Source: Haloglomus salinum (GTDB taxonomy: Archaea > Halobacteriota > Halobacteria > Halobacteriales > Haloarculaceae). From it: DNA of 64,000 bases. The stretch covers positions 2,604,001-2,668,000 of the forward strand of contig NZ_CP101153.1 of the NCBI RefSeq assembly GCF_024298825.1, given 5' to 3'. The translations under genes were made by a program, and so were the position numbers. The notes below the pieces were generated by a model. The model searched no databases. It saw only the letters and a list, made by a program, of their open reading frames with translations, and was not told the origin of the DNA. Shown here in pieces: positions 11,403 to 12,188 of the stretch. Each line of letters begins with the position of its first letter. Positions within the stretch are counted from its first letter, which is position 1.

Positions 11403-11575
11403 CGACCGGATGGAGTGGAGGCGGGGACTAAGGGGCTCCGTTCGTGGGTCGTATCGTTTCCGCCCGAAGAATCGCATCTTCTGATATTGTGGGCGTATTC
11501 TGGAATCTACGCTTCAGATTACGTCTATATGTGCGTGCTTATAGATATGATCTCCGTGCTCTGGTCGATTCCATC

Positions 11576-11694
11576 GAAAGCCCCCGCTCGCTCGGGGGTC
11601 CGCGACTCGTTGCGCTCCTCGGGCGCCTGCGACGCCCTGCGGTGCTTACTTCGCCGGGGACCCGCCGAGCGAGCGGCCCCTTTCAGTCCCGCCC
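11576..11694 (-). repeat. 120-bp dispersed element, copy 1 (head-to-head)
   Basis: Read on the minus strand it starts GGGCGGGACTGAAAGGGGCC and ends CGAGCGAGCGGGGGCTTTC. The first 22 bases are a perfect reverse complement of the start of copy 2 at 11963, and the last 19 match the end of copy 2 with one mismatch. Internal blocks such as CCGAGGAGCGCAACGAGTCGCGG-like (shortened here to CGAGTCGCGG) also align. The two ends contain CTGAAAG and CTTTC, so the element can fold back on itself. It is 119 bp. Nature unknown: repeat, MITE remnant or structured RNA. Confidence 0.75.
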
Positions 11695-11962
11695 CGTTCC
11701 TGTATCACCGAGCGTTCGCGCGTGGTGATTCCAGCAGAGCGCTAGCGTCCCCATACCTCCCCGCGCGAGCGCCGACTGGCTGCGAACACGCTCGCTCGCG
11801 CTCGCGGTTCGCTTCGGGTGGCGCTCGCGCGCTTCCTCGTCCCGGAACCGATTATATCGAGCAACCGCCAGCTGGCCGGGAGCGCGTGGTCGAGGCGCTC
11901 GCGCCGAGGCCCGTGCGACCTGGGGAAGGGCAGGGCCATCGCGAGCCGACACAAGCCACATA

Positions 11963-12082
11963 GGGCGGGACTGAAAGGGGCCGCCCGCCTCGACTCGGCC
12001 CCGACGACGCAAGGACCACAGGCCGAACGAAGTGAGGCCGAGGACCGCAGCGAGTCGCGGCCGGTCGAGCGGGCGGGGGCTT
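11963..12082 (+). repeat. 120-bp dispersed element, copy 2 (head-to-head)
   Basis: Plus-strand copy of the element at 11576-11694, 120 bp long. It begins GGGCGGGACTGAAAGGGGCC, has the internal block GACCGCAGCGAGTCGCGG, and ends CGAGCGGGCGGGGGCTTTC. The copies point away from each other with 268 bp between them. The centre of the element has diverged while both ends and the CGAGTCGCGG block are kept, a pattern expected for a structured element. It ends 107 bp before the dUTPase start. Confidence 0.75.
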
Positions 12083-12188
12083 TCAGCTGGTTCTCATCGT
12101 GGCTGTCGGTTCCGTCGTGAAGTCACCCTACTACCACCCATCCGCCAGAACCCGAATCCCTAAGCCCACACGACGAGCGCTCCCCGCC

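Follow-up and report, generated by a model that had tools for sequence, protein, structure and literature searches.

Results

Two complete units lie back to back at the locus

The window is a 64,000-nucleotide stretch of the Haloglomus salinum genome (contig NZ_CP101153.1, positions 2,604,001 to 2,668,000). The gap studied here is bordered on the left by a minus-strand gene that, named by eye, we take to be Trm1-like, and on the right by a plus-strand dCTP-deaminase/dUTPase-like gene (PF22769, PF00692). As far as these two flanking genes go, the gap is free of genes, as first described. It holds two complete units placed back to back, 24 bp apart, with the following parts.

11552-11575, minus strand: 3' flank of the minus-strand unit, GATGGAATCGACCAG..., listed among the other flanks
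11576-11690, minus strand: arm (3' hairpin domain) of the minus-strand unit, running GGGACTGAAAGGGGCC...GGGGGCTTTC, with exact ends
11691-11849, minus strand: structured 5' domain of the minus-strand unit, GGTTCC...GCGCGGGGAGGTATGGGG...CAGGAACGGGGC
11749-11766, minus strand: GCGCGGGGAGG block within this 5' domain
11850-11873, no strand: centre between the two 5' domains, delimited from sequence
11874-11966, plus strand: structured 5' domain of the plus-strand unit, GGCCGGGAGCGCG...CTGGGGAAGGGCAGGG, the latter at 11920-11935
11967-12084, plus strand: arm (3' hairpin domain) of the plus-strand unit, closing with ...GGGGGCTTTC
12085-12108, plus strand: 3' flank of the plus-strand unit, similar to AACAGG.ttC.GTCGtcgC.Gt, the family consensus derived by profiling 38 downstream flanks

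The two arms are copies of one ~115-nt hairpin and match a covariance model (R1, built from 26 copies) with 120.5 bits (E 3.0e-18) for the minus-strand arm and 116.6 bits (E 1.6e-17) for the plus-strand arm. The initial annotation had placed two elements of about 120 bp here; both are present as described, except that the plus-strand arm ends at 12084 and not at 12082. The perfect 22-bp common start that it reported is borne out by the alignment, in which 22 identical bases (GGGCGGGACTGAAAGGGGCCGC) sit inside a 26-nt block of 96% identity and are followed by diverged middles; at the opposite end lies a 47-nt block of 85% identity. Constant length, also proposed at the time, applies to the window pair and fails for the family, whose copies, chosen by exact ends, measure 59-177 nt because hairpins are gained or lost in the stem and the apical loop. 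Some arms carry inserted hairpins of 50-110 nt. Loci L015 and L037 (right arm) carry the same ~110-bp hairpin-rich insertion within the 3' strand of the arm. No TATA box is conserved at the element centre in Haloglomus, and the centre of the window pair showed no conserved promoter.

The arm is a covarying rod with near-invariant loops

Twenty-six arms were aligned by sequence alone. In the 34 proposed pairs, 96.0% of 878 cells were paired and 19 pairs had changes on both sides; the structure was set by hand with the same 26 sequences in view, and its independent support is a second arm set from other genera. The covariation score was 0.396, compared with a maximum of 0.066 when the partner was slid by 1-3 columns, and none of 500 shuffles reached the observed values, so that covariation exceeded both kinds of control, as expected of a structured RNA. 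The second set, 101 arms from many genera, had the same loops and very different stems. The terminal stem, for example, appears across genera as GAAAG/CTTTC, CAAAG/CTTTG, CGAAG/CTTCG or GGAAG/CTTCC, and the internal loops GAYGYAAGCACYGCA and GAGGAGCGCAGCGAG are almost invariant. The outer part of the rod consists of the GAAAG/CTTTC stem, the internal loop GGG/GGG, some 17 covarying pairs and a second stem; in the inner part, the fixed loops GAYGYAA/GCAGCGA and GCA/GA flank a short stem, beyond which lies a variable apical hairpin. All three near-invariant internal loops (GGG/GGG, GAYGYAA/GCAGCGA and GCA/GA) are purine-rich. That the arm is a genuine, structurally constrained family is close to certain. 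A protein-coding origin was rejected on account of indels of many lengths together with the paired changes.

As sense RNA, both window arms form the rod, with z-scores of -3.37 (11576-11694) and -2.52 (11963-12082). The antisense strands gave -3.88 and -2.90; the complements fold as well, and folding energy therefore picks no strand. Mismatches at fixed register number 122 G.A/A.G against 3 T.C/C.T and 35 G.G against 4 C.C. The excess of G.T over A.C is weak overall (46:30, p 0.085); the outermost seven pairs give 26:10 (p 0.011). The evidence for the sense RNA strand is moderate.

Each arm follows a structured 5' domain

A conserved domain lies upstream of every arm, each unit having its own structured 5' domain. 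In type A elements, the minus-strand unit and 20 relatives have in common a ~158-nt domain that is closed by GGTTCC/GGAACC and carries a covarying GCGCGCnnGCGCC stem; RNAalifold energies over these 21 copies were -53.1 in the sense and -38.9 in the antisense direction. The plus-strand unit and 31 relatives have instead a common ~93-nt domain with CTGGGGAAGGGCAGGG (32 copies, -17.9 in sense and -10.7 in antisense). A kink-turn considered for the 5' hairpin was dropped after inspection by eye, as the three bases of the supposed "bulge" are paired in most copies.

Head-to-head pairs are the usual form in Haloglomus salinum

In the genome, of 4.19 Mb, the conserved 16-mer GGGACTGAAAGGGGCC occurs 34 times exactly and 8 times with one mismatch; the reversed 16-mer, used as a control, does not occur. 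When the best 150 first-look candidates were scored with R1, at least 100 arms were found at E 0.01 or better; the fetched loci contained 106 distinct arm matches at E 0.1, one being a locus-edge fragment and a few marginal. Near-identical copies occur at unrelated loci, with up to 94% identity over 469 bp. At L018, L029 and L043, the last ~20 arm bases and the 3' flank are tandemly repeated downstream of the arm (e.g., GAGCGGGCGGGGGCTTTCAACAGGATTC), and these ends look as if they had been re-inserted or had slipped.

Among 36 neighbouring arm pairs within 1.6 kb (the locus-edge fragment left out), 31 are head to head, 3 tail to tail and 2 in the same direction. Two classes of spacer length stand out, type B of 77-79 bp and type A of about 275 bp. 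The pair in the window had been put down to duplication in inverse orientation; it is not a local duplication, as head-to-head pairs with a fixed spacer are the usual form in this genome. The space between head-to-head arms is made up of the two structured 5' domains. At L033, facing arms lie 1.4 kb apart, at 2365557 (+) and 2367101 (-).

These arrangements bring to mind a REP/REPIN-like system, in which an HUH (Y1) transposase would read each arm, on its own strand, as a single-stranded DNA hairpin, and what moves would be the inverted pair. The arms are imperfect palindromes found on both strands, most neighbouring pairs face head to head, and the copies are numerous, intergenic and without context bias. 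The distribution of the transposase speaks against it. At E 1e-5, no Y1_Tnp (PF01797) match came from G025 (81 arms), G005 (33 arms) or G029 (54 arms; 81% complete), and the arm-free genomes G006, G031 and G035 do have it; the nearest Y1 gene in the window genome is about 13 kb from any arm, and Halorubrum copies are mostly single. An HUH/RAYT partner is thus not supported by Y1 distribution across arm-bearing and arm-free genomes, and we consider this reading quite unlikely.

The family is confined to one order of Halobacteria in the genomes searched

BLAST, covariance-model and loop-motif searches found the element widespread in its own genome and in other Halobacteria, as the initial annotation had suggested for other haloarchaea. 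Arms were present in 28 of 39 genomes searched (the window genome included), with 1-86 per genome. Of 295 genomes drawn from across the phylum, 50 were positive, all of them from the order of the window genome; about 60 genomes of this order were drawn, the 10 negatives being listed, and no arm was found among the genomes listed for the about 235 outside it. Some genomes of the order are without the family, which is therefore not essential. The loop motif matched at least 120 stretches in genome contigs; all 80 titles among the matches listed are Halobacteria, and none of these 80 is Haloquadratum. The window pair is one two-unit member of a structured-element family found across this order. 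Covariation and common borders, whose lack had been named beforehand as grounds for abandoning the proposal, were both found.

The congener G002 has 107 arm matches. At the locus orthologous to that in the window, it has lost the centre (corresponding to window positions about 11667-11983) and kept the outer halves of both arms. Several orthologous loci retain the element between Haloglomus species; orthology was accepted for BLAST-checked pairs only (six of the seven "others" had matching flanks, L154/L020 being without). A collinear matching of arms between G000 and G002 included wrong pairs and entered none of the counts. Gene contexts of arms differ between genomes. In G001 (L137, G001:C1:3494500-3507000), the Trm1-like and dUTPase-like genes are ~9 kb apart and mutually inverted, with an arm near the dUTPase-like gene; the rearrangement is possibly located at the element. 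In G018, each of the two arms (L061 and L075) sits directly upstream of a gene; the two genes are homologous and have an RPY(L/I)HVRPT motif in common, and one of the encoded proteins had no NCBIfam match.

The element is absent from Rfam and in that respect previously unlisted: the families of Rfam 15 gave no match in the window at the gathering cut-off, and permissive scans of window positions 11480-12185, one Halorubrum unit and 8 loci yielded only sub-threshold matches at chance level. A phage origin was also rejected. There was no match in the phage collection and no loop-motif match in viral contigs, and four viral 16-mer matches came down to one 17-bit fragment with the covariance model. 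Neither the sequence word GACTGAAAGGGG nor a description of the element was found in the openly accessible journal literature searched, PMC3119063, PMC2864571, PMC3733652 and PMC7002113 among it. Halobacteria are reported to have conserved intergenic sRNAs whose function is not known (PMC7002113), and these may include the element.

The element is dispersed and varies in presence between relatives

Halorubrum units are mostly single, unlike the head-to-head pairs of Haloglomus, and carry GCGGTGGCGCGYGCC...GCACGCGCGAGGGAGTC, a hairpin and GACGAGGCTGGGGAGGCGTGAGG on the 5' side of the arm. In a set of 43 arms, 35 had a recognisable domain start, and in 21 of these 35 units TTATAA, TTTATA or TATAAA occurs 5-30 nt upstream of the domain (13 of 2220 random 25-nt windows gave such words as background). 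In 21 of 42 cases, a similar word also follows the arm at a distance of 25-50 nt. Upstream of the unit, such words are an indirect sign of an RNA gene; being found on both sides, they may mark element ends as well as, or rather than, a promoter. Dispersed matches in the Halorubrum search have common unit borders (query about 695 to 980).

At one Halorubrum locus, a full-length match was present in 6 of 52 genomes, and the element was absent at all 7 inspected sites without one. All six orthologues with the element keep the TATA-like box. The replacement of stem blocks among them suggests that copies exchange sequence or that paired changes are fast. Between G002 and G000, presence differs at several sites, and one side often retains end remnants; L148 of G000 (2480-2620) has only a short palindrome of two element ends, and L143 of G002 has a ~500-bp element there. 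No target-site duplication was demonstrated at the G002/G000 or Halorubrum sites, where the element-free sites are too diverged to read. In G009, a member of another genus, three single-arm copies, 87-91% identical pairwise, lie between TIR-like ends resembling GTTCAGATAA...TTATCTGAAC, clear in two copies and with a degenerate right end in the third.

Two readings turn on these observations. The arm could be the DNA-only hairpin core of a MITE/SMR/PATE-type element that encodes no transposase, the terminal repeats and transposases differing from case to case. The TIR-like ends in G009, the TTATAAA-like words at both ends of Halorubrum copies and the presence/absence between relatives agree with this, as does SMR-A of Haloquadratum, which is reported to be about 110 bp long, to have inverted ends, to leave no target duplication and to reach 54 copies (PMC3119063). 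Yet the ends vary among genera, and a DNA passenger would have no need of loops that persist throughout the order; no duplication of a target site could be shown; and SMR-A families are reported to have no mutual sequence similarity (PMC3119063), whereas the arms have common invariant loops. We regard this reading as unlikely, if conceivable.

In the other reading, the element acts in cis, in mRNAs or close to promoters, as a terminator, riboswitch or topological insulator and is selected at each locus for its neighbouring genes. Many copies do lie between close neighbour genes, and several orthologous loci keep theirs between Haloglomus species. However, around 60 loci, with genes called from acidity and GC3 by a simple rule, 24 contexts were co-directed, 21 divergent and 15 convergent, compared with 72/39/39, and so showed no orientation bias; contexts also differ from genome to genome, and the Halorubrum locus described above is occupied in few genomes. 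A terminator or riboswitch of neighbouring genes was rejected on the unbiased gene orientation, and the cis-acting reading as a whole appears highly improbable.

Many plasmid arms lie upstream of an OB-fold protein gene

BLAST with the window element returned 21 plasmid records, all named ones haloarchaeal, and no phage; several arm-bearing plasmids are typed MPF_T. In 8 of 13 plasmid regions inspected, an arm lies about 500 nt upstream of a gene for an OB-fold DNA-binding protein and points away from it, and the remaining 5 are without this arrangement. With the OB-fold protein as the query, 18 of 30 fetched loci had an arm (16 at E below 1e-6), and all 18 arms are on the same side, pointing away, 434-605 nt from the start codon. 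The protein, ~298 amino acids long and common on haloarchaeal small replicons (97 of 195 genomes), resembles replication factor A/SSB in its C-terminal part, below curated cut-offs. The whole ~600-nt region from gene to arm is conserved, folds with -164 in the arm sense and -141 in the gene sense, and is mostly unannotated (L314-L343, L047-L049, L122, L125-L127 and L129). The region has the look of a large structured plasmid RNA with the arm at its end.

A dependence of the arm on the OB-fold gene was considered and rejected: G024 and G029 have many arms and no homologue at E 1e-30, and the protein is thus not required for chromosomal copies. A ribonucleoprotein system of Halobacteria can be imagined, in which an ornate ~600-nt plasmid RNA, divergent from the SSB/RPA-like OB-fold gene, ends in the arm, and the ~100 chromosomal arms per genome are non-autonomous satellites that borrow its RNA-binding machinery to multiply. 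We consider this very unlikely. If true, the satellites would be an RNA-recognised repeat, SINE/LINE-like in logic but in archaea.

Discussion

A multicopy structured RNA as the preferred reading

The window pair had first been read as an uncharacterised RNA or a non-autonomous mobile element, and the analysis supports this, with the possibility that both readings are true together. We think it somewhat probable that the family is a multicopy structured RNA that is transcribed, acts in trans through its fixed loops and has spread as a dispersed non-autonomous repeat. Judging from sequence, RNA is likely to be the working form of the arm; a mobile core that is DNA only, or a signal in single-strand DNA, would be the alternatives. 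The unit would consist, outward from the centre, of the 5' domain and the ~115-nt arm, a long putative rod whose helices may change freely as long as they stay paired, with near-invariant loops between them. The unit would be transcribed and its RNA folded into the rod, the fixed loops forming an active surface or one on which a protein or ligand docks. Action in trans is proposed because the copies sit by unrelated genes. As DNA, the units would behave as a non-autonomous repeat that disperses through the genome and whose stem blocks are swapped by recombination; in Haloglomus the usual unit of spread would be the head-to-head pair. Of this picture, the structure, its conservation, the dispersal and the differences in presence between relatives are observed, and transcription, action in trans, a binding partner and the way in which copies move are inferred.

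With up to about 100 copies per genome across an archaeal order, the family may rank among the largest unannotated structured-RNA families in Archaea. It offers a large natural data set of compensatory mutations and accounts for part of the long intergenic gaps of haloarchaea. The plasmid locus, with its structured region and OB-fold protein, is a concrete place to seek a binding partner. If the copies are RNA genes, annotation and the interpretation of RNA-seq would have to change, as would views of the spread of repeats in archaea.

Comparison with known systems

REPINs and BIMEs with their RAYT (TnpA-REP) are likewise intergenic, high-copy, imperfect palindromes in head-to-head pairs with a fixed spacer. 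Inverted pairs are the recurrent form in this genome (31 of 36) and Halorubrum has mostly singles; no HUH/Y1 transposase went with the arms across the genomes compared. REPINs and BIMEs are 20-40 bp long and have RAYT, whereas the arms measure ~115 nt, have invariant internal loops and their own 5' domains, are uncorrelated with Y1 transposases and are common to the whole order.

SMR-A/PATE elements of Haloquadratum walsbyi, as reported, resemble the arms in their ~110 bp, inverted ends, dozens of copies and lack of a protein, and also in that small hairpin elements are inserted into one another; PATEs are reported to descend from IS605 ends (PMC3119063). The two differ in that the SMR-A/PATE families reportedly have no common sequence or structure (PMC3119063), whereas the arms have one fold with fixed loops in many genera. 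MITEs are also short, non-coding and dispersed, and G009 has TIR-like ends, but the arm family conserves its core and not its ends, and no target duplication was seen.

In the F plasmid, Frpo/ssi are single-stranded promoters of the leading region next to ssb. Plasmid arms similarly lie upstream of an SSB/RPA-like OB-fold gene (18 of 30 loci); they differ in that the arm reads away from the gene and chromosomal copies are without it. GOLLD and ROOL, large ornate RNAs of phages and plasmids, are like the plasmid region in being plasmid-borne, ~600 nt long, conserved, structured and non-coding. The region described here has no Rfam match, is archaeal and, unlike GOLLD and ROOL, has a 3' arm that recurs as a chromosomal repeat.
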